Below, one piece after another: positions 32,862-53,646 of a stretch of DNA of 64,000 nt (within the stretch, counting starts at the first letter, position 1; each line of letters begins with the position of its first letter). A model generated the notes under the pieces. It saw nothing but the letters and a program-made list of their open reading frames with translations. It searched no databases and had not been told where the DNA came from. The translations under genes were made by a program, and so were the position numbers. Source of the stretch: Bellilinea sp. (GTDB taxonomy: Bacteria; Chloroflexota; Anaerolineae; Anaerolineales; Anaerolineaceae); assembly GCA_026003615.1 (NCBI GenBank), contig BPHQ01000001.1, forward strand, positions 806,001 to 870,000, read 5' to 3'.

Positions 32862-34391
32862 ATGTCTCAAAAGTCGTTGCGATTTATCATCCTTTTTGCT
32901 GTAATTTTAAGCGGGCTGCCGTTTCTGGCAGGTTCGCTTTTCCAAAACGATGATTATCTCTACACTGGTTTGTTGTTAAATCCGATAGACGGATTCAGTT
33001 ACCTGGCGAAAATGCAAATCGGCATGCGCGGGGAGTGGCAGTTTCACCTGCCTTACACTGCCAATGAAGGACACGGGGCATTCCTGTTCATGTTTTATAT
33101 CCTGCTCGGACATATCGCAAGGATTTTTTCAATTGAACCGATCATAGTATTTCATCTCGCCCGTCTGGCAGCAGGATTCGTTTTATGTTGGGGAATTGTG
33201 TCATTTCTTCGGTCAATTCGGGTCAAGTGGATTGAAATTACGTTAAACTATCTCTTGTTGATGATTCTATTCGGTTCGGGAATGGGGTGGTTGGCAGGTC
33301 CATTGGGCGTTTTTACAATGGACTTCTGGGTTGCCGAAGCCTATCCCTTTTTGAGTATGTTGGCCAATCCACATTTTCCATTGGGGATTGGATTATTGTT
33401 GTTTTTTTTCTCGGGAATACAAAACAGCCGAGGGATTAAGTGGTTTGACCCGTTTTTGGGAGTAATCCTTGCGATTGTAATGCCATTTGGCGTCGTGGTG
33501 GGTGTAGCGGTAAGTGCGGTCTTTAATTTGCTAAGATTGATCCAGCGTGAGGAAATCTTCTGGAAGTTGCCTGTGGCTTATGGGTTGCCTGCTGGGTTGA
33601 TGTTGATTTATCAATACATTGCAATTTTATCCGATCCTTTATTGAGGGAGTGGAATGCACAAAATCAAACACCCACACCATCGCCTTTTGTATTTCTTAT
33701 TTCATTTGCCCCGCTGATTTTTTTTGCTCTGATTGGATTCGGATTCTGGTTGATACGGGATCGTAATTCAAATCTAACCTTAAGCGCGGCCTGGTTATTG
33801 GGCGGGATTGTTTTGGCTTATATTCCATTTGCCCTTCAAAGGCGATTTTTATTGGGGTTCTTTATTCCTGTTGGAGTATTTGCCTTGCTCGGTCTGGGCA
33901 GGATTGCCGGGGAACAGGCAAATAAATTTCTGAGATGGTTCTGGCTGATTTTCCCGCTTACTTTCCTTACAAACCTTTTTTTCTTATTAGGTGCTTTTCA
34001 GGCATTTTCTCAGCATCAGTATCCTTTATACCTGACCAAAAATGATCAAGCGATGTTGGAATGGATGCAACGAGAGGTTTGTCCTACAAAAGCTGTCTTT
34101 CTGACACCTGCCGAATTTGGACTCCTCATTCCGGCTTATACCGATTGCCGGGTAGTCTATGGTCATCCTTTTGAAACGGTGAATGCGAAAAAAATCGAGA
34201 CCTGGCTTGCAGAATTTTACGGCGGCAAAATCAATTTGGAAGAATTGAACCGGTTTATCATTCAATATCAGGTGGATTATATTGTTTGGGATCAAAGTAG
34301 TTCCACCCAAACTCCAAATATGATCGAAGACATGCCTGTTATCTATCAAAATAATCAATACCTCATCCTTCGAGCAAGGGGTAATTCTTGA
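32862..34391 (+). CDS. Large polytopic membrane protein (type A copy 1; glycosyltransferase-like)
   Basis: MSQKSLRFIILFAVIL; homologous by eye to 36477..38069 (DGFSYLAKMQIGMRGEWQFHLPYTA). Confidence 0.75.
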   Translation: MSQKSLRFIILFAVILSGLPFLAGSLFQNDDYLYTGLLLNPIDGFSYLAKMQIGMRGEWQFHLPYTANEGHGAFLFMFYILLGHIARIFSIEPIIVFHLARLAAGFVLCWGIVSFLRSIRVKWIEITLNYLLLMILFGSGMGWLAGPLGVFTMDFWVAEAYPFLSMLANPHFPLGIGLLLFFFSGIQNSRGIKWFDPFLGVILAIVMPFGVVVGVAVSAVFNLLRLIQREEIFWKLPVAYGLPAGLMLIYQYIAILSDPLLREWNAQNQTPTPSPFVFLISFAPLIFFALIGFGFWLIRDRNSNLTLSAAWLLGGIVLAYIPFALQRRFLLGFFIPVGVFALLGLGRIAGEQANKFLRWFWLIFPLTFLTNLFFLLGAFQAFSQHQYPLYLTKNDQAMLEWMQREVCPTKAVFLTPAEFGLLIPAYTDCRVVYGHPFETVNAKKIETWLAEFYGGKINLEELNRFIIQYQVDYIVWDQSSSTQTPNMIEDMPVIYQNNQYLILRARGNS

Positions 34392-36499
34392 TGCTTAGTA
34401 AGTGGCGGTGGTTGGTTTTGCTCCTTCCCCTATTACCCTGGTTAATTGTTTCCGTGAATTTTTTCTTTCCGAGATATTCGGAATTTTCAGATATGACTAT
34501 AACACACCTGCCAAATGCTCTTTATCTGCTGCAAAGCATCCGGGATTACGGAACAATTCCATATTGGTCTGATTTGATTTTCAGCGGTTATCCATTCGCG
34601 GCCAATCCCTTAGCGGGTTTGTGGTATCCTCCAGCCTGGTTAGCATATCTTCTTCCTTTGCCTTTCGGTTTTAATGTGATGGTGATTCTTCACCTGCTAT
34701 GGGGGGCGGTTGGTTTGGAACGTTTTCTGAATAATTTCAAACTGCGAAAAGAAGCCAGTTTGCTGGGAGCATTAGCTTTTTTGTTAATGCCTAAAATGTT
34801 TGCTCATTTTGCAGCCGGGCATATCACGCTGATTTATGCAATCTGCTGGACGCCATGGCTATTATTCAATCACACTGCAAATCAGCAAAAATCCCGCTGG
34901 CTTATCTCTGCGGCTATACTGGGGCTGATTATGCTTGCAGACGTGCGCTGGTTGGCTTACGCAGTAATTTTTTGGGGTGGATGGGTGGTATATACGTTGT
35001 TTGAACAGGTAAAAAGTGCTACTTTCAAAAGGCAAATCAAGAAAGTCTTTGAAATTCCACTGGTGCTGGTTACAGCCCTTCTACTGGCAGCCGTTTTGTT
35101 GTTGCCATTGATTGAATATACCCGACTTTCCACGCGATCTCTTATGAATCAAAGTGATATTGCGGTGTATTCATTACCCCTTGAAGAGATATTAGGTTTG
35201 TGGATACCGGACTTTGGTGGTTTCGCAGAGTGGATCCTGTACCCCGGTTCTGTTGTTTTTTGCCTTGCAATTTACTCAATATCCATCCCTGGCGTTCGTA
35301 AGAAAACCGTATACTGGTGGCTGGCGATTCTTCTCAGCCTACTGCTTTCCTTTGGTAAATCGTTACCCTTCTTTTCAATCCTGTCAAATTTACCCGGTCT
35401 AGATTTATTGCGAGTACCTACTCGTTTTTACTTTTTAGGTGGAATGGGATTTGCCGTCCTGGCGGCATGGGGTCTCAATGACTTGCTCGAAAGAGAGAAT
35501 CTGTTTCGACCTGATCCGGTCTTTTTTATGACACCTTTTGCTGCCTTTTCGGTTTTCTTTGGAATGGGGTTCCTTGTAATGGGGCAGAAAATACCTCCTA
35601 ACTTAATCTGGGGATTTTTTAACCTGTTGAGCGTTATTCTTCTAATTGCTTTGTTGGAGCGAAATAGAAACTTGATCGTTCAGGGCATAAAAATATTGGT
35701 CTTGCTCATAATTGTGGATTTATCGTTGGTTAATCAACAAAGCATTCAAATAAGAAACAGGGTGGAGGTTTTTTCCGAAAATCAGTCGGTGGTTGAATTC
35801 TTGAAATCGCATCCTGGGGAATTTAGAATTTACACACCTTCTTACAGTATTCCTCAACACATTGCGGCATTCCAAAATATCAAAATGGTCAACGGTGCCG
35901 ATCCCTTGATCCTGAACTCCTACCAGGAATTTTTTATCCGGGCAAGTGGCGTATCTCTTGATCGTTATAGCGTGACACTCCCGCCTTACCCGAATGATGA
36001 TCCAAAAACGGACAATCGAAATTACACACCTGATCTGGAATTAATGAGCCTGCTTGGGGTACGATTTATTGTGTCGGAGTTTGAAATTCCGACATTACAA
36101 AACCATCAAGTTGCTCAGTTTTCAGAAAGCCGGGTGTATGATAATCCCTATTTCTTTGGATTGGGATGGGTAGAGCGTGAAGGGCAAAGGCTGCCCATAA
36201 ATCAGCTCAAAATTCAGCCGAACAGGCTTGAAATAACTGCCCAAGGGCCGGGCAGGATGTTCATTTCTCAAGTTATTTATCCCGGCTGGATAGCAGTAAT
36301 GGATGGTCAACCGATATCATTCACTTTGAAGGAAAATCTATTCCCCATTATTAATTTGCCTGATGGAGAACACACCATACAATTAGAATTCAACCCGAGG
36401 CTGGTATATATTGGAATAGGAATAAGTGTTTTGGCATGGTTTAGTTTAATTATTTATTTTTTCTGTAAGTGTTTCCATGAGAAAAGGCGAAAGGATTAA
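34388..36499 (+). CDS. YfhO-like polytopic membrane protein (type B copy 1)
   Basis: Multiple TMs; C-terminal SQVIYPGWIAVMDGQPISFTLKENLFPIINLPDGEHTIQLEFNP typical of YfhO-like proteins. Confidence 0.75.
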   Translation: MMLSKWRWLVLLLPLLPWLIVSVNFFFPRYSEFSDMTITHLPNALYLLQSIRDYGTIPYWSDLIFSGYPFAANPLAGLWYPPAWLAYLLPLPFGFNVMVILHLLWGAVGLERFLNNFKLRKEASLLGALAFLLMPKMFAHFAAGHITLIYAICWTPWLLFNHTANQQKSRWLISAAILGLIMLADVRWLAYAVIFWGGWVVYTLFEQVKSATFKRQIKKVFEIPLVLVTALLLAAVLLLPLIEYTRLSTRSLMNQSDIAVYSLPLEEILGLWIPDFGGFAEWILYPGSVVFCLAIYSISIPGVRKKTVYWWLAILLSLLLSFGKSLPFFSILSNLPGLDLLRVPTRFYFLGGMGFAVLAAWGLNDLLERENLFRPDPVFFMTPFAAFSVFFGMGFLVMGQKIPPNLIWGFFNLLSVILLIALLERNRNLIVQGIKILVLLIIVDLSLVNQQSIQIRNRVEVFSENQSVVEFLKSHPGEFRIYTPSYSIPQHIAAFQNIKMVNGADPLILNSYQEFFIRASGVSLDRYSVTLPPYPNDDPKTDNRNYTPDLELMSLLGVRFIVSEFEIPTLQNHQVAQFSESRVYDNPYFFGLGWVEREGQRLPINQLKIQPNRLEITAQGPGRMFISQVIYPGWIAVMDGQPISFTLKENLFPIINLPDGEHTIQLEFNPRLVYIGIGISVLAWFSLIIYFFCKCFHEKRRKD

Positions 36500-38069
36500 C
36501 CTCTTTTTATTTTGGTTAATAACAACCACAATTACATCTCTACCCTATATTGTTGGTTGGCTTACTTCTAATGGCAATTTTGATTTCACAGGATTACTAA
36601 TTGGTGTAGAAGATGGAAATTCATATTTAGCAAAAATGTTGGCCGGTGCTAAGGGAGCATGGTTATTTAAGACACCTTATACTGCTTTTCCGCAACAAGG
36701 GTTTTTAGCATTCCTCCCATATCTTCTGTTAGGAAAATTATCAGGTCCGGATGGAGATTATCAAACAAGAATTATTCTTTTCCATTTGTTTCGCATCATG
36801 GGGGTTGGTTTTTGTAGTTATTCAATTTATAGGTTTATCGGAATATTTACTCAAGAGGAACGAAGCCGAATATTTGCATTGATTTTATCTGTGTTAGGAG
36901 GGGGATTCGGATTTTTGTATTTTTTGGGTTTCAAGGAATTGTGGTCATATCTGCCATTAGAATTTTATTCTCCTGAGACCTTTGGTTTTTTATCTTTCCT
37001 TTCAATTCCTTATTTGATTTGGGCAAGGGGTTTCTTGTTTTTAGGTTTAGCAAAATATTTAGAAAATAGATCAAACAATTTTCTGAAAGAAGGTTTAATC
37101 ATTGGGATTTTGTGGAATCTACTCGCTTTAATGCAACCCCTTACTGTACCAATTGGTTGGTTAATTCTCACAGTTTATTGTCTGATTGAACTAATCTTAG
37201 CCAAATGGAGAGGAAATATAGATATCAGAAAGTCTTTATTTGCTGACTTAATGAAGTTGATCGTGATCGTTTTGATTTCTTCTCCTCTTGTAATTTATAC
37301 TTTCTTTGCCTTTCAAATTGATCCATTTTTGAAATTGTGGCAATCTCAAAATATCATCCTTTCTCCATCGTTTATTGAGTATATGCTGGCTTATGGTTTA
37401 CTGATTCCATTTGCTTTTCTCGGTATGCTCAATAACAGAAGACGTTCAGAATTTCGTTTCTTGATCGTATGGGTTTGTATTCTCCCATTACTCATTTACA
37501 CTCCCTATCAATTACAGAGACGCTTAGCTGAGGGAGGGATTGTTGTATTAAGTATCCTTGCAATAGATGGTTTATCCAGAGTTCGAGACAGGATCGGTAA
37601 ATTTGAAATTTTCTGGTACTCAATGAATTTTATTACCACTTTTATCCTTTTATCAGGATTGATGATTGCAATTTTTTCAAAGGCATTTCCACTTTACTTG
37701 GATAAGGAAGATGTTCAATTATTTCAAAATGTACGAAAATTAATACCAGACCAGTCGGTTGTTCTTGCAGATTGGGAAATTTCAACGTTACTTCCAGCGC
37801 ATGCTCCAGTTCGGGTGATCATAGGACACGGTCCGGAGAGTATTCGAGCGAAACAGATTAAAGATCAACTAGATTTCCTTTACATTCAAGGTGACATGTT
37901 TGAATTCTATACCTTCTTGATAGATGAAGAAGTGGACTATTGGATTATTCGGAAATCGAAAATTCCTGAGTTTATGAAAGTCGGTTCAAATAATGTGGAG
38001 TTTCTCCATGAAATTGCTCAAAACAATAAATACATCATATATAAGGTCAATCCACTGGTTATGAAGTAA
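36477..38069 (+). CDS. Large polytopic membrane protein (type A copy 2)
   Basis: DGNSYLAKMLAGAKGAWLFKTPYTAFPQQGFLAFLPYLLLG, parallel to copy 1. Confidence 0.75.
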   Translation: MRKGERINLFLFWLITTTITSLPYIVGWLTSNGNFDFTGLLIGVEDGNSYLAKMLAGAKGAWLFKTPYTAFPQQGFLAFLPYLLLGKLSGPDGDYQTRIILFHLFRIMGVGFCSYSIYRFIGIFTQEERSRIFALILSVLGGGFGFLYFLGFKELWSYLPLEFYSPETFGFLSFLSIPYLIWARGFLFLGLAKYLENRSNNFLKEGLIIGILWNLLALMQPLTVPIGWLILTVYCLIELILAKWRGNIDIRKSLFADLMKLIVIVLISSPLVIYTFFAFQIDPFLKLWQSQNIILSPSFIEYMLAYGLLIPFAFLGMLNNRRRSEFRFLIVWVCILPLLIYTPYQLQRRLAEGGIVVLSILAIDGLSRVRDRIGKFEIFWYSMNFITTFILLSGLMIAIFSKAFPLYLDKEDVQLFQNVRKLIPDQSVVLADWEISTLLPAHAPVRVIIGHGPESIRAKQIKDQLDFLYIQGDMFEFYTFLIDEEVDYWIIRKSKIPEFMKVGSNNVEFLHEIAQNNKYIIYKVNPLVMK

Positions 38070-38072
38070 GGT

Positions 38073-40439
38073 ATGTATCGAATGAGATTCTTACCACAAA
38101 GGATAAATCACATTATTGTATTTGTTTTTTTTGCTCCGTTTGCTCTTTATTTAATTCCCTTGCTTGAGGGTAAGGTGATTTTCTGGGGGACTGCGGGATT
38201 GCAATTTATCCCGTGGCGGGCTTATGGGTTTGCATTAATAAGCCAGGGTGTTTTTCCCTTTTGGAATCCCCTTAATGGAATGGGAGCGCCCCTGTTTGCC
38301 AATTATCAAACTGCTTTTCTATATCCTCTCTCATGGATTTTATACCCGTTTTATTTATTTGGAGGAACGCCAGCGTTGGCATGGGGATTTACATTATTGG
38401 TGCCGGTTCATTTGGGCATTGCCGGAATAGGTATGGCTTTATTTCTTAGAAAAATCGGTGTCAACCCGCGTGGGCAGATAATAGGTGCATTGGCTTTCAG
38501 TCTTTGCGGCTATTTTGTTGCGCGTGCCTCCTTTTTCAGTATGATTTGGGCAGGTGTCTGGTTGCCCTGGTTGCTTTTGGCAATAGAAGGAGTGGTAAGT
38601 TCCGAACAATTCCTTCAAAAATGGCGATGGATGATTGGGATTGGGCTAATAGGCGTCAATCAATTATTGGCGGGGCATGCCCAATTGACCTGGTATTCAT
38701 TTGTTTTTTCTGGATTATGGGTAATACTTCGTGTAGCCAAATTTCGAAATTGGAAAGTTAAACTTGAAAACGCAACTTTAATATTTATGGGATTCGTGTT
38801 GGCATTTTTGTTGGCAAGCGTTCAACTGGTTCCAACTTTAGAGTATTTATCCCAATCGCAGCGTTCAAGTGCTGTGAATTATGAATATGCCGTAAATTAT
38901 TCCCTGTGGCCGTGGCGTCTGCTTGGTTTCTTTTTACCAGATTTATTTGGAAATCCCGGAACCGGAAACTATTGGGGATTTGGGGCTTATTGGGAGGATG
39001 CAATTTACATTGGCCTGCTCCCGGTATTATTGGCTCTGAATTCCATCATTTCACATTTCCGTGTAAAACCAACCACTGATTTTGAATTTGAAAAACGAAG
39101 GTTGGTGGTGTTTTTATGGGCGGTGATTATAGTTGTATTAATCTTGAGTTTAGGAAAAAACACTCCGGTATTTCCGTGGCTTTATCACAATATTCCAACA
39201 TTTGATATGTTTCAAGCCCCAACCCGCTGGATGTTTTTAGCCGTTTTTGCATTGGCGATACTGGCTGGTCTTGAAGCCCATTCGTGGTGTTATCCATCGG
39301 CTGCGGGTATCAAGAGATTTCGATTAATGATTGCTGCAAGTATTGCAATTGGAGTAGGGGCGGTTGCTGCCGGTTTCTTGCTGCCGCAAATTGAAAAGAC
39401 TTTTATTCGCTCTTTTCTCACCTTTGGAGCCTTATTGTTTTTGTTTTCTGTCTTAGCGCTTTACACTCCTAGGGATGGCGCACCCACCTTTAGAAAACAA
39501 ACCTTATGGAATAGTTTGGTAGTTGGGATTGTGATGGTGGATTTATGGCTGGCAGGTGCTTTCACCAATCCATTTATTGATGCGCAATTCTTTGAGGATC
39601 CTTCACCTTCTTCTAAATCCTTGGAGAGATTTGAGCGGACATATATACCATCTTCAGTAGAAAACCGCTTGAAATTTGAAAAATACTTAATTTTTCGTGA
39701 TTTTAATGCCAACTTGAATTGGGATGAAGTTAAGTTACTTCCCTTGCCAAATATCAATATGTTGGCTGGTATCCCAATGGTAAACAATTTTGACCCGCTG
39801 GTGCCCTCTCGCTTTGACCAATGGATGAATTGGATGGACAACCTTTCCTATGAAGAGTTAAAAGGTTACCTTGAAAGAAACGCAGTGGGGAATATTATTG
39901 TACTGAGGGAAAATCTTGATTGGGGTATTGTAACTCTAAATCCTCGCGCGAGAATCTCGTGGAGTGGATGCCAAAGGGTGGATAATTTTAATGAAGATAT
40001 TCAAAAGTTAATGGTTCTACAACCGTTGGTATATTCGAATAGCGGGGAGTGTATAATTGTTGAGGCAGAAGATCAATGTAATGTAAAACCTGAAATTATA
40101 GAAAAAAGTGCTACGATTGAGGTTCAACGTGATGAGGTTAATTTGATCGAAGTCGCTGTAAACGCCGTTTCCACCGGCTGGGTACGCATTGCAGACAGCT
40201 GGTATCCGGGATGGAAGGCTACCATTGATGGACATCGTGCTTCGGTTGAACGCGTTGATTATCTTTTTAAAGGCGTATGTGTACCGGCAGGGAAGCACAC
40301 ATTAATTCTTCAATATCAACCAACTGCGTTTCCTCACGTTGTTTGGATCAGTTTGGGGACATTGCTGTTTTGCTTGGTCTCCTTGGTATTTCCAATTAAG
40401 GTGAGAGAAATGCAGTCAGTCCAGAGGAGTCATAAATGA
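38073..40439 (+). CDS. YfhO-like polytopic membrane protein (type B copy 2)
   Basis: Multiple TMs; C-terminal [46 protein letters not shown]. Confidence 0.8.
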
Positions 40440-42917: not shown

Positions 42918-43418
42918 TTATTTTTGTTGATGTCCTTTCTCTGCTGAAGGATCCTCCCGCAGCAATTCGATGGCATGGGGCAGAACCGGTAAAACATATT
43001 CGAGGTTTTCTACTGCCCCTTTAGGACTACCGGGTAAATTGATGATCAGGGTTTTTTTACGAATGCCGGCTTGCTGACGGGAGAGCATGGCATGGGGTGT
43101 GATTTTCATACTATATCCCCTCATTGCTTCAGCAATGCCGGGTGCGGTTTTATCTAAAACTGCCAAGGTAGCTTCGGGGGTCACATCGCGAGGAGCAAAA
43201 CCTGTTCCACCAGTTGTTAGAATTAAGTCAAAATTACCAGAGTCGCACCATTTGATCAGGTAAGACTTGATTTCATCAAATTCATCGGGAATAATCGCAG
43301 TAGAGATGACATGGAAACCAGCGTCCGTGACCCTCTCAATAAGAGCCGGTCCGGAGAGGTCTTCACGTTCGCCGCGGTAACTTCGGTCAGAAATGGTGAT
43401 AATACCAACCCGGATCAT
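42918..43418 (-). CDS. MogA/MoaB family molybdenum cofactor biosynthesis protein
   Basis: VGIITISDRSYRGEREDLSGPAL ... LILTTGGTGFAPRDVTPEAT ... LIINLPGSPKGAVENLEYVLPVLPHAI. Confidence 0.94.
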   Translation of the reverse strand: MIRVGIITISDRSYRGEREDLSGPALIERVTDAGFHVISTAIIPDEFDEIKSYLIKWCDSGNFDLILTTGGTGFAPRDVTPEATLAVLDKTAPGIAEAMRGYSMKITPHAMLSRQQAGIRKKTLIINLPGSPKGAVENLEYVLPVLPHAIELLREDPSAEKGHQQK

Positions 43419-45157
43419 CTTTCTCCATCATCCACACCGGTGAGTTTGCGCCATTGGCCGTGAATTCCATCCTCAGTGACTCCAAAGAAGTAGCGATACC
43501 CCTGAGGTGTCCGAAGGATGAGATCAAAGCGGGTGATGTTTCCCTGCTTGTGCTTCCTCAATAATCCATAATCCCCCAACCACTTAATTTTCGCGGGTTC
43601 AAAGGTCTTAACGGTTTCACTGTAACGATCAATTGCATAGTGCCAGAGCTTGCGTGCTGATGCGCGGGTAACATTCTTGACTACGTTACCGTTGCGAAGG
43701 TCGCGCATCGTAAAGTAAAGTTTACCCTGCCGTTCTTCAGGCGGCAGAACCTCAACTCCGGTGCGGGGCTCTACCCCCAACTCTCCGCGGATAGTTTCTG
43801 GGGATTGGATGGAAACGGTTGAGTTAATATCATTGGATGCAGGTTGAATTGCGGTTTTGTTGCGTAATACGAGGTTGACGATTTCATCTCTGACTGCCAA
43901 TCCTGTATCGGCCTCATCCCGAATATAGATTTTATTGTCATCCACTGCATAAGGTGGTTCTTCGCCTCGTGGAATTAAAATCCGAATAATTTTCTTCCCT
44001 TTATAATCCAGGGCATCAATCGAACAGTGTAAAGGTGGGCTAATACGGTTGTTGATTTCTTTTTCCAGAGTATGGATGCTTTGTTCCACGTCCTGAATGC
44101 CTGCCGGTGGTTTTTTAGGGTCTGCGCTGATTCCAATATAAAGCGTTCCGCCATTTGTATTAGCGAATGCGCACACATCCGCTAAAATTGCATATAACTT
44201 ACCCCCTCGCACGGTCATGCTTTCGTGGAAGTCCTGAATGATATTCGGGCCTTGTTCCTGAGCATTTTGAACGAAATCAAACCGTGTTTCCTCTTTATGT
44301 TGGTGGGGGCGCGTACGAGAAAAATCGTTGCTTTTGAAGAGGTCCAACAGTGCTTCAAATGTACACTCTGGCAAAAGGACATCGGTTGCTCTTTCGCCAA
44401 CCCCCAAATTTTTTTTCCGAGTTGGGTCAGAGGTAAGACGATGAGCATCAGAACCCTGAATGCAGTGCATTCGGCGTGGATATTCTGGTTTCGTACCGTT
44501 GAAAAAGGCCGCGGTTGTGCGTGGTCCTTTTTGTTCAAGGTCGGTTACTTCAAGGGCGTGAAGGTTAGGGTCTTGAGTGAATGCGATTTTGGTTTGCCCG
44601 CCAAAGTTGAACCCCCGCATGGCCACCCCATTGCTCGAATTGGCATGGGCTGCAATCACCAAACCTCCACTTTCGTTGATTACTCGATAGACCGTGAGAA
44701 CATCCTCCGTGGCACCTACGGTTTGAGAACCTTCATCAATTTGATCTGGTGGAATATTAAGCGTAAGAAGCAAATGTTCCAGTTCTCGAATGGACTTATC
44801 CGGCGGGAAAATGCAAAGAATGTGAAATCCGAATGTGGCTGTAAATTCAAAACCGGGTAATACCTGGATTTTTGCCAGTAAGCGGTGATATTCTTCTAGC
44901 CGCTGTTTTTCGGCGGGCAGGAGCCGCCCCAACTTGTCGAGGAATTCAAGTGAGCGGATTTCCTCTACCATCTTGCGATAGCCAGCAACGGTATTATGAT
45001 CGGTGATCGCGATCATATCCAAGCCGCGGGCTTCAGCTTTTTGTAAAATATCCAAGAAAGATACTTCGGGTTGTTGATAATCACTCGAAGCAGGGGTGTG
45101 AATGTGAAGATCAACGGTAAACCATTGAGAGTTATTTAGGGATTGTTTTTTAGCCAA
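43415..45157 (-). CDS. PHP-domain phosphoesterase fused to AlbA_2/Schlafen-like domain
   Basis: N-terminal [15 protein letters not shown]...[11 protein letters not shown]...[10 protein letters not shown]-terminal [26 protein letters not shown]...[28 protein letters not shown]. Confidence 0.82.
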
Positions 45158-45182: not shown

Positions 45183-45542
45183 TTAAGAGGAGGATTTTAA
45201 TTTTTGAATCAAGTCTGCTGGCATATAAGGCTTGAGTAAAAATTCATCTGCACCAGCAATCAGGCATTCTTGTTTTCGGTCTTCACCTGAGGTCATGATT
45301 ACGCGGAACTTTCTGTGTTGAGCACCACCCTGGTGAATACGTCTCAGTATCGTCAATCCATCGGTGTTTTTAAGGTTTATATCCATCAATACGATATCAG
45401 CGTCGGATTTATGGATTTGAGAAACCAGGTCGTCTTCATTGTTGACTTCTAAAACATTTACCTGAAATTTCTCAATTTCGAGTAAGGTTTTCAACAAGGA
45501 ACGCATCGAGAGATCGTCTTCAATGATCAGTACTTTTGTCAT
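45183..45542 (-). CDS. Stand-alone response-regulator receiver protein
   Basis: KVLIIEDDLSMRSLLKTLL ... DIVLMDINLKNTDG ... RVIMTSGEDR ... FLLKPY. Confidence 0.92.
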   Translation of the reverse strand: MTKVLIIEDDLSMRSLLKTLLEIEKFQVNVLEVNNEDDLVSQIHKSDADIVLMDINLKNTDGLTILRRIHQGGAQHRKFRVIMTSGEDRKQECLIAGADEFLLKPYMPADLIQKLKSSS

Positions 45543-48121: not shown

Positions 48122-48553
48122 TTAATCCTTGATGATGTGGATTTGCTTAGGACGGGCTTTGGGAAGTTCTATTCTCAATAATCCCTGCTCATAGACGGCT
48201 TCAATTTGAGAGTCATCTACTGGAATGTTGATGTGTAATTCTATGTTGAATTCACCATAGGGAATTTCCATTTGATGAATGGCACGAGGTGACTCATAAG
48301 AAAAGCGACGAATCCCCTGGACGATTAGCGTATCTTGATGGAGCAAGATAGCTAAGTCTTCTTCTTTTATCCCAGCGATTTCCATGAGAATGATGATCTT
48401 GTCCTCGGTTTCATATACATCAGTGGCTGGTTGCCATTTGTGAGGATGGTTATTGTTCCAGTTATTCAGGTATTTTCCAAAAGCGGGAGTTGCTTCGTCT
48501 AATCCGCTAAAACTGGTTTGAGATTTTCTTGACTTGAAATAAATGGTCACCAT
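48122..48553 (-). CDS. Hsp20/alpha-crystallin small heat shock protein
   Basis: WQPATDVYETEDKIIILMEIAGIKEEDLAILLHQDTLIVQGIR; RBS GGAGG before ATG at 48553. Confidence 0.92.
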   Translation of the reverse strand: MVTIYFKSRKSQTSFSGLDEATPAFGKYLNNWNNNHPHKWQPATDVYETEDKIIILMEIAGIKEEDLAILLHQDTLIVQGIRRFSYESPRAIHQMEIPYGEFNIELHINIPVDDSQIEAVYEQGLLRIELPKARPKQIHIIKD

Positions 48554-48581
48554 CGAACCTCCACTAAATAAAAAACAACTA

Positions 48582-49106
48582 TTACAATGCTTGCTTTGCA
48601 GCATTAATTACAGCATCGTAATCAGGTTCTGCCCCGATGGTAGGCATGTATGCAGCATAGATAATGCGATTATCGCGATTTACAACAAAAACAGCCCGCC
48701 TCAATATTCGCAACTCCTTGAGTAGAACACCATATTTTTTACCGAAATCAACATCCATATGATCGGAAAGAACCATAACCTGATCAATGCCAGCTGCACC
48801 GCACCACCGTTTTTGGGTGTAAGGGAGATCCGTACTGATAACAAGGATCGCAATATCTTTGCTTAGATTGGCAGCATCCTGATTGAAACGTCTGGTTTCG
48901 CGATCACAAACTGATGTTTCCAACGAGGGTACAGAAGCGATGATACGAACTTTCCCATCGGTCGCACTTAACCCCGAAATGGTTGACCAATCTTGAGCGT
49001 GGACAGTAAATTCAGGTGCGACATCACCCGCTTGAAGGTCTGGTCCTACAACCGTCACATCTTTACCGGCAAAACTGATTAGTCCATTCCTTTCAAGAAA
49101 AGTCAT
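48582..49106 (-). CDS. tpx: Thiol peroxidase (Tpx-type peroxiredoxin)
   Basis: GLISFAGKDVTVVGPDLQAGDVAPEFTV ... IASVPSLETSVCDRETRRFNQDAANLSKDIAILVISTDLPYTQKRWC. Confidence 0.93.
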   Translation of the reverse strand: MTFLERNGLISFAGKDVTVVGPDLQAGDVAPEFTVHAQDWSTISGLSATDGKVRIIASVPSLETSVCDRETRRFNQDAANLSKDIAILVISTDLPYTQKRWCGAAGIDQVMVLSDHMDVDFGKKYGVLLKELRILRRAVFVVNRDNRIIYAAYMPTIGAEPDYDAVINAAKQAL

Positions 49107-49323: not shown

Positions 49324-49761
49324 TTATCCCCTCTGAACAGGTCGAATTCCCTGATAAACGGTGGTGCCGGAGAAGGTTTGCAATATTTTATCCGCCGGTC
49401 TGCCGATGATTTCGGCTAGCTCAACAGGAGTTAACGGTATATTTCCATTTGAAAGAAAAACCCGAAAAACAGCATTTACGAGGGATGTATTTTGAGATAA
49501 AAAGCCGGGTAATTTTGCACAATGTACCATTAAGGTATGCTGAAGGCCATCCACTTGGGTTACTTCTGCGGTTTGGGGATTTACCCAGTCTATCCAGCTT
49601 TCTTCACCCATCTTTTCAAAAACGCTCTGATGTTCGGGGCATAAGAAGCTCAAAAGGAAAACCCGCCAGTTTTGATCATGGCTTTTCCACCACTCAAAGT
49701 CTATATGAAAAGGAGTTTGAAGGGTTGGTTTTATGAGGCTGAAGCGACTGGAAATGCTCAT
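49324..49761 (-). CDS. Uncharacterised protein with C-terminal winged-helix-like segment
   Basis: ORF adjacent to and co-directional with 49766..51352; LVNAVFRVFLSNGNIPLTPVELAEIIGRPADKILQTFSG. Confidence 0.65.
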   Translation of the reverse strand: MSISSRFSLIKPTLQTPFHIDFEWWKSHDQNWRVFLLSFLCPEHQSVFEKMGEESWIDWVNPQTAEVTQVDGLQHTLMVHCAKLPGFLSQNTSLVNAVFRVFLSNGNIPLTPVELAEIIGRPADKILQTFSGTTVYQGIRPVQRG

Positions 49762-49765
49762 TTTA

Positions 49766-51352
49766 TCAGACCTCTGAGTCTTGGTCGCTTAGGCGGTAGT
49801 ACAAATCGCCGAGATGGAGGATATTTCGCTGATTTGCCAAAATTGAAACCAGTACACCCGGCGGACAGCGCCGAACCAGATTGACTGCCGCGTAAAGTTC
49901 TTGGGCATGAACATGACCCTGAGGAGATAGTTTGACCATTTCCCGCATCATGCTGAGAATTGTTTTTTCCAGAGGGGTTTTATATCGTGAGCCAGTTTCC
50001 CAAACCTGGTCAAGAGCCGCCACGTCAGGAATGGCGATAGCCATTCGCTCATCGTATTCATTACCAGTCTGTTGCTTTAGCATGGTCAATACCACTCCAC
50101 CATCCGTACCTACTAAAACAGTACGTAGCCACTCTTTGGTTGATTTTTTCTTTAATGCCCTGACGATGACTTTACCCGGCTCTTTACCTTGCTTAATGAC
50201 AAACAAAGAGCCTGGGATCAATTCTTTTTCTTCGATCCATTCCCTCAAGCCAAAAACATAACGATTGGGACGCACTACCCAACCAGGAAATTCTTTACCG
50301 GTTTCTTCATCCACAAAAAGGAAACGAACCCGAGGCGCTTCATACGCCGTTGGGAACAGTCGAGCAATACTTCTGGAGAGCGGAATTGTTCCAGATCTCC
50401 AGTGAGGGAATATTAAACTGACTTCAATTTCTTCGGCTTTGCGGGGTAAATCCCCTTCGGGTTCCAGTTCATCAAAAACCAGACGGTTCAGCGCTTCAAT
50501 CTCTGGTCGGGCGAGGCTGGTATCTACTGATACAGGTTGATAGCGTAAATAGAGGGGTATGTTTTGTACTCCTTCTGGTTCCAATCGGCGTAAGAACCAG
50601 AGGGTCTTACCAGCGGGTCCTACTTCATCGAAGCGGCTATCTTCTTGTAAAGCCAGGTTCATGGAGAATTCGGTCAGTTTCCGATTCACATCGGTTGGAA
50701 GTTCGATCTGGTCTAAGATCACCTCTGTTGGAAGAGGGCCTCCTCCAGCCATCTCCAGTACAGCCTCGGCCAAGTTGAGATGCCCAACGCTCACATCTAC
50801 CAACAGAGAACGGGGAAACCACGCTCCTGCAATTTGAACAAGGTCGGGAACGGTTTCAAAGGTGCGGGTTAGGAGACTGGCAATCTGATCCGTATATTTC
50901 TCCAAAATCAAATTGGCGTTTAGAGCTGGTTCGGTGATTTCGCTTTGAATGGATTGATTGAGAGAATGATCAGGTAATGAGGCAGCAAACTCCTTTATGC
51001 TCCCATCTTCCATCTCAACTTTGATCACCTCAAAGGGGGGTAGGTTGGGATTAAACCCCGCGCGCAAGGAAAGTACTTGCCCTTTTGCCCAATTGAGTGC
51101 AGGAAATTGAAGCCGCTCACCCGGCTGATATGTATTTTGAGGTTGATAAATTTCACCTCGGGCAGACTGGAGCTCCAACAGGCGCTTTGTTTCACGACGA
51201 ATTCGTTCTCGAATTAAGACTTCGGCTAATTCTCTTGCTGTGAGAGGAGTTTCGATTTCCAGAAGGTGGTTATAAAGAAATTCGAGATCTTCTTCTTGAA
51301 TTTCAAATTTTTCCCAATATGTCTCTTGCAGGTTTTCTATCTGAACTGGCAT
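49766..51352 (-). CDS. Uncharacterised protein with several winged-helix-like segments
   Basis: 528 aa, soluble; DLEFLYNHLLEIETPLTARELAEVLI and LNLAEAVLEMAGGGPLPTEVILDQIEL. Confidence 0.7.
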   Translation of the reverse strand: MPVQIENLQETYWEKFEIQEEDLEFLYNHLLEIETPLTARELAEVLIRERIRRETKRLLELQSARGEIYQPQNTYQPGERLQFPALNWAKGQVLSLRAGFNPNLPPFEVIKVEMEDGSIKEFAASLPDHSLNQSIQSEITEPALNANLILEKYTDQIASLLTRTFETVPDLVQIAGAWFPRSLLVDVSVGHLNLAEAVLEMAGGGPLPTEVILDQIELPTDVNRKLTEFSMNLALQEDSRFDEVGPAGKTLWFLRRLEPEGVQNIPLYLRYQPVSVDTSLARPEIEALNRLVFDELEPEGDLPRKAEEIEVSLIFPHWRSGTIPLSRSIARLFPTAYEAPRVRFLFVDEETGKEFPGWVVRPNRYVFGLREWIEEKELIPGSLFVIKQGKEPGKVIVRALKKKSTKEWLRTVLVGTDGGVVLTMLKQQTGNEYDERMAIAIPDVAALDQVWETGSRYKTPLEKTILSMMREMVKLSPQGHVHAQELYAAVNLVRRCPPGVLVSILANQRNILHLGDLYYRLSDQDSEV

Positions 51353-53208: not shown

Positions 53209-53646
53209 TTAACTATTTTTACTTTCTGCTTTTGCAAGCACTTTTTCAATGCTTTCCAGTAATTCTTGAGGTCGAAATGGTTTACTAATATAGTCATCCA
53301 CGTGGGCGATATGTAAACCAAGGACACGGTCAATGGCCTGTGCTTTTGCGGTAATCACAATAACGGGAATGTTTTTCGTTTTCTCATCTGATTTGAGATT
53401 TTGATAGACCTCCCAACCGTCCATATCCGGCATCATCAAATCCAACAAGATTAGATTGGGTGGATCCTGTCGCACCATTTCAAGGCCAATCTTTCCCCCC
53501 TGCGCACCTTGAACTGTGTAGCCGCGTCGGCTCAAGATCATGGAAACAAGGTCAATCATCTCCTGATCGTCTTCAATATAAATGACCGTGCGGTTGAGAC
53601 TTGAATTCATCATTTTTCTGGCTGATCTTCTTGAAATATTCATCAT
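53209..53646 (-). CDS. Stand-alone response-regulator receiver protein
   Basis: TVIYIEDDQEMIDLVSMIL ... NLILLDLMMPDMDGWEVYQNL ... DDYISKPFRPQELLESI. Confidence 0.92.
   Translation of the reverse strand: MMNISRRSARKMMNSSLNRTVIYIEDDQEMIDLVSMILSRRGYTVQGAQGGKIGLEMVRQDPPNLILLDLMMPDMDGWEVYQNLKSDEKTKNIPVIVITAKAQAIDRVLGLHIAHVDDYISKPFRPQELLESIEKVLAKAESKNS

Follow-up and report, generated by a model that had tools for sequence, protein, structure and literature searches.

The 580-residue product of one gene in the window (the whole 64,000-nucleotide stretch of Bellilinea sp. DNA that was analyzed) carries a PHP domain at its N-terminus, an AlbA_2/Schlafen domain in its middle and a C-terminal domain that could not be assigned to any fold, and it represents a new, unnamed family assembled from known parts and inherited vertically in many Chloroflexota. 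The metal site of the PHP domain is intact as judged from aligned homologs and a predicted structure, and our favored, though tentative, reading is that the protein is a phosphoesterase that depends on Mn or Fe, its probable substrates being the ends of nucleic acids or else nucleotides.

The reading frame given in a preliminary description of this DNA was recovered as claimed, with all four PHP motifs quoted there, and the fusion of PHP and AlbA_2 proposed on that basis was borne out (Table 1). Both Pfam domains scored above their curated cut-offs (PHP, 5.2e-07 at residues 16-106; SLFN_AlbA_2, 1.8e-19 at residues 320-417, 70.8 bits against a cut-off of 25.3), while the last 160 residues had no Pfam match. 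An AlphaFold2 model of the full protein, built with 75 orthologs, reached a mean pLDDT of 81, with values below 50 in the linker region (residues 417-460). When this model was used as a Foldseek query, it retrieved the PHP enzymes 2anu (5e-8), 3o0f and DNA polymerase III alpha, as well as the AlbA_2-type proteins 2kyy (3.5e-4) and 3lmm (7.8e-4), so that structure prediction did yield the AlbA_2 fold on which the preliminary description had staked its domain assignment. Purifying selection was strong among the three nearest homologs (dN of about 0.05 against saturated dS) except in the linker, where dN was raised. No named family in the libraries searched has this PHP, AlbA_2 and C-terminal domain build. 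Searches of open-licence papers turned up none that treats PHP together with AlbA_2 and Schlafen, none that links PHP to Anaerolineae or to TrlF, and none that combines Schlafen, histidinol phosphatase and phage; the sole match for PHP, Chloroflexi and nuclease concerned mismatch repair.

Table 1 Positions in the window of the PHP-AlbA_2 gene, the parts of its product and the neighboring genes.
Feature	Coordinates	Strand	Basis or remarks
PHP-AlbA_2-CTD gene	43415..45157	-	580 aa, TTG start, no internal stops
PHP domain, residues 1-285	44303..45157	-	Pfam PHP, ligand columns, Foldseek
AlbA_2/Schlafen domain, residues 286-435	43853..44302	-	Pfam PF04326, column counts, Foldseek
Variable linker, residues 436-463, predicted disordered	43769..43852	-	Low pLDDT, raised dN
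C-terminal domain, residues 464-578	43424..43768	-	AlphaFold model
mogA/MoaB-type molybdopterin adenylyltransferase	42918..43418	-	Pfam PF00994, 1.2e-35
Stand-alone receiver domain	45183..45542	-	Pfam PF00072, 3.7e-23
Lon protease (presumed), 851 aa	45557..48112	-	Named from sequence
Hsp20 small heat-shock protein	48122..48604	-	Pfam PF00011, 1.2e-13

The PHP domain carries the HxH, D/H, E, H, H and DxH ligand motifs of the superfamily together with its fold. In an alignment of 98 homologs at 38-92% identity, H18, H20, D53, H54, E104, H112, H171, D237 and H239 were invariant and D26 was kept in 97. A helical hairpin (residues 58-96) lies between motif II and E104 in the AlphaFold2 model. The same metal-site motifs are found in RNase AM/YciV and CV1693 (PMC9410882), which differ in their weak sequence similarity (22-26 bits against the model of RNase AM) and in their accessory domains. 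RNase AM is a PHP 5'-3' exoribonuclease with three Mn ions, and its activity is disrupted by the D20A, E72A and D255/H257A mutations (PMC9410882); our D26 is equated with D20 of that enzyme by motif, not by structure.

Among the NCBIfam models, TrlF was the top PHP match for all six proteins tested, the window protein included (95-111 bits), followed mostly by Ppl or Spaf_1101, with the RNase AM model far behind. The PHP domain stands at the N-terminus of the TrlF family AAA-like ATPase (NF045780) too, and the window's domain and that of a plasmid TrlF have every ligand and the HTPAS-x-D spacing in common. Q188, Q195, Y226 and R228, which are invariant in the 98 homologs, differ in that plasmid TrlF. 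The TrlF likeness suggested by the preliminary description stands for the PHP domain but not for the rest of the protein, which has AlbA_2 and a unique C-terminal domain where TrlF has an ATPase: the window protein scored 103 bits against a TrlF cut-off of 350, over profile positions 3-241 of 944. Likewise, only the N-terminal part of the 836-894-position Ppl and Spaf_1101 profiles was matched (Ppl, NF042955: 80.7 bits against a cut-off of 1000, positions 2-210 of 882; PADLOC Ppl: positions 5-225 of 894; Spaf_1101: 71 against a cut-off of 475). Because of this relationship of its PHP domain to TrlF and Ppl, we favor a phosphoesterase acting on nucleic acids.

The main rival is a phosphatase of nucleotides or small molecules (nucleoside bisphosphates or signaling nucleotides, for example), in which AlbA_2 and the C-terminal domain would serve ligand sensing or oligomerization. 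We consider it a real but less probable possibility. Weak matches to 3',5'-nucleoside bisphosphate phosphatase and to CehA/McbA-type hydrolases point this way, the top structural matches of the PHP domain (2anu and 3o0f) are small uncharacterized phosphoesterases, AlbA_2 is acidic, and the receiver and GNAT genes of the cluster described below would suit signaling. However, the PHP domains of TrlF, Ppl and Spaf_1101 outscore the small-molecule families by far, a comparison that concerns scores only.

Some DNA polymerase PHP domains are inactive and structural, and the domain studied here might similarly be a catalytically dead scaffold within a conserved protein. This is improbable, as none of the metal ligands is missing from more than one of the 98 homologs across their whole range of identity.

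The window comes from an assembly of 1.65 Mb that is 71.5% complete, and the nearest named relative found was Bellilinea caldifistulae (91-92% protein identity). Full-length relatives of the protein (E < 1e-150) occurred in 34 of 61 related genomes, comprising all eight of the genus, six of 29 others in the family and 20 of 24 others in the order. A scan of the named genomes in genome_contigs gave 361 related stretches, the best 80 of which were nearly all titled Chloroflexota and mostly Anaerolineae. Across the phylum, 60 of 400 genomes had the gene, other Chloroflexota classes included, at identities down to 38%. Full-length copies were mostly single in a genome, and the pairwise distances of the protein tracked those of Lon (Mantel r 0.88 over 65 loci, a value reached by none of 999 permutations).

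The gene lies in a cluster whose order in Anaerolineales is hsp20-lon-receiver-(PHP-AlbA_2 gene)-(GNAT)-mogA. The mogA overlap (4 bp at the stop of the PHP-AlbA_2 gene) and the adjacent receiver and lon were as the preliminary description had placed them; the lon product is presumed to be Lon from its sequence, as in that description. Upstream, 57 loci had enough DNA to be judged, and lon was present in 53, hsp20 in 44 and the receiver in 38; downstream, mogA followed in 50 and a GNAT acetyltransferase in 32 of the 69 loci with enough genes. The conservation of the lon linkage supports the housekeeping or stress-type neighborhood proposed earlier. In some more distant genomes, lon directly adjoins the PHP-AlbA_2 gene (L117, L122 and L123). 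An obligate tie to Lon is ruled out by several genomes that have the lon cluster and lack the gene. Six such genomes retain an operon-type lon, arranged as lon-receiver-mogA (L156 and L157), lon-receiver-GNAT-mogA (L160), lon-GNAT-mogA with an unlabeled ORF between (L159), lon-mogA without a labeled receiver (L161) or lon-receiver without mogA (L158), with no trace of the gene remaining where these clusters are tightly spaced; in another four genomes without the gene, only a more distant lon was found. Since the gene is absent beside some lon clusters and its long form has no lon linkage, the tie to proteolysis is not obligatory.

Several other features of these loci were recorded. Six genomes (G026, G018, G010, G047, G045 and G169) have two Lon genes each, the operon-type one being 62-73% identical to the window's Lon and the second 49-51%. 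Two proteins of 528 and 145 aa (49766-51352 and 49324-49761, minus strand), neither with a Pfam match above cut-off, recur near the lon cluster at many Anaerolineales loci, and a second stand-alone receiver-type protein of 145 aa is encoded nearby (53209-53646, minus strand). Three large membrane-type proteins (703, 530 and 788 aa; 34388-40439, plus strand), the last labeled YfhO-like by eye, stand beside MoxR-like and DUF58 genes, in a block that flanks the lon cluster in several Anaerolineales.

A role in anti-phage defense of the TrlF/Ppl kind, which the preliminary description had raised, fared poorly. TrlF and Ppl are the closest relatives of the PHP domain, and in the one plasmid TrlF region inspected, helicase and N-6 DNA methylase genes are the neighbors. 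Against this, the ATPase domain was not found, the gene follows Lon in its distances and is mostly single in full-length form, its neighborhood is of the housekeeping type, and nothing in the plasmid and phage collections matched over 80% of the query; carriage on mobile elements, which is typical of defense systems without strictly defining them, was thus not seen. On inheritance, neighborhood and the lack of full-length plasmid or phage matches, we judge a defense role very unlikely.

By profile score and fold, the AlbA_2 domain belongs to the AlbA_2/SLFN family (PF04326), and it retains the N-x-x-GG...G signature (N333, G336, G337 and G342) that it has in common, along with the fold, with SLFN11, SLFN12, CbCash 9ylu, DIP2311 3lmm and 2kyy. 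These proteins match the AlbA_2 part only, and they differ in that the Schlafen RNase acids are not conserved in the window's family. At the positions that presumably correspond to the Schlafen site (E-x4-E...D; placed with a Schlafen alignment), the columns of the 98 homologs were not conserved as acidic, position 304 being mostly P, A or S, position 309 D in 67 and E in eight, and position 344 mostly S, N, G or P. A Schlafen-type endoribonuclease with a catalytic AlbA_2 and an auxiliary PHP domain is therefore the least probable reading despite the fold match to SLFN11, SLFN12 and CbCash 9ylu, since these column counts speak against a Schlafen RNase active site and it is the PHP site that is nearly invariant instead. 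As the Schlafen RNase acids are not kept, AlbA_2 probably assists the PHP site without being catalytic itself, most likely as a module of recognition or assembly. It is acidic on average (mean net charge -4.7, 75 sequences), whereas the C-terminal domain is basic (+4.8), which, together with the missing Schlafen acids, weakens the earlier proposal that the AlbA domain guides the enzyme.

The C-terminal region, which the preliminary description could not assign, indeed gave nothing significant in Pfam (71 members searched), a PDB profile search, Foldseek against PDB and viral structures, or PHROGs. Modeled alone, residues 464-578 formed a confident fold (pLDDT 90.2) made of a half-module A (β-β-β-α) and a half-module B (β-β-β-β-α); in long homologs (770-862 aa) an HMM showed the halves repeated as A-B-B-A-B, the middle B being weak in one of seven. 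The A3 profile of the domain matched in 23 of 151 Chloroflexota genomes, always in ORFs of 588-884 aa that are consistent with the PHP-AlbA_2 family, so in this search the domain was found only there. The PUR repeat is likewise a β-β-β-β-α unit (PMC2954813), and half-module B resembles the PUR-domain (Pur-alpha) and SsgA/SsgB folds in topology; this is a topology hint only, as the Foldseek matches were weak, with TM-scores of at most 0.31 and none significant. A PUR/Whirly-like identity was not borne out, with no match at E <= 0.001 (8cht, TMq 0.20; 3k44, TMq 0.27).

In the phosphoesterase reading that we favor, the PHP site would hydrolyze phosphoester bonds with Mn or Fe as its metal, and AlbA_2 and the C-terminal domain would recruit or gate the substrate, for which the end of an RNA or DNA molecule is the likeliest candidate and a nucleotide a close second. 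The retained PHP ligands, the AlbA_2 fold, the basic C-terminal domain and the conserved lon cluster argue for it; the presence of small-molecule phosphatases in the PHP superfamily counts against it, and the net acidity of AlbA_2 in the family against nucleic acid binding. The close same-strand spacing of hsp20, lon, the receiver and the PHP-AlbA_2 gene suggests co-transcription, and if they are co-transcribed, the protein may serve a stress or quality-control cluster as an accessory enzyme that can be dispensed with. More speculatively, and rather unlikely as a whole, it could be a nuclease or phosphatase of Chloroflexota that binds its substrate through a new C-terminal fold and would place RNA or nucleotide turnover and Lon/Hsp20 quality control under one receiver. 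These results single out an uncharacterized enzyme family of Anaerolineae and further classes of Chloroflexota, a phylum whose molecular biology is little developed, and show a TrlF/Ppl-type PHP domain away from its ATPase and defense setting; they also offer for testing a small, foldable domain without an assigned fold and a cluster in which the linkage to lon is conserved.
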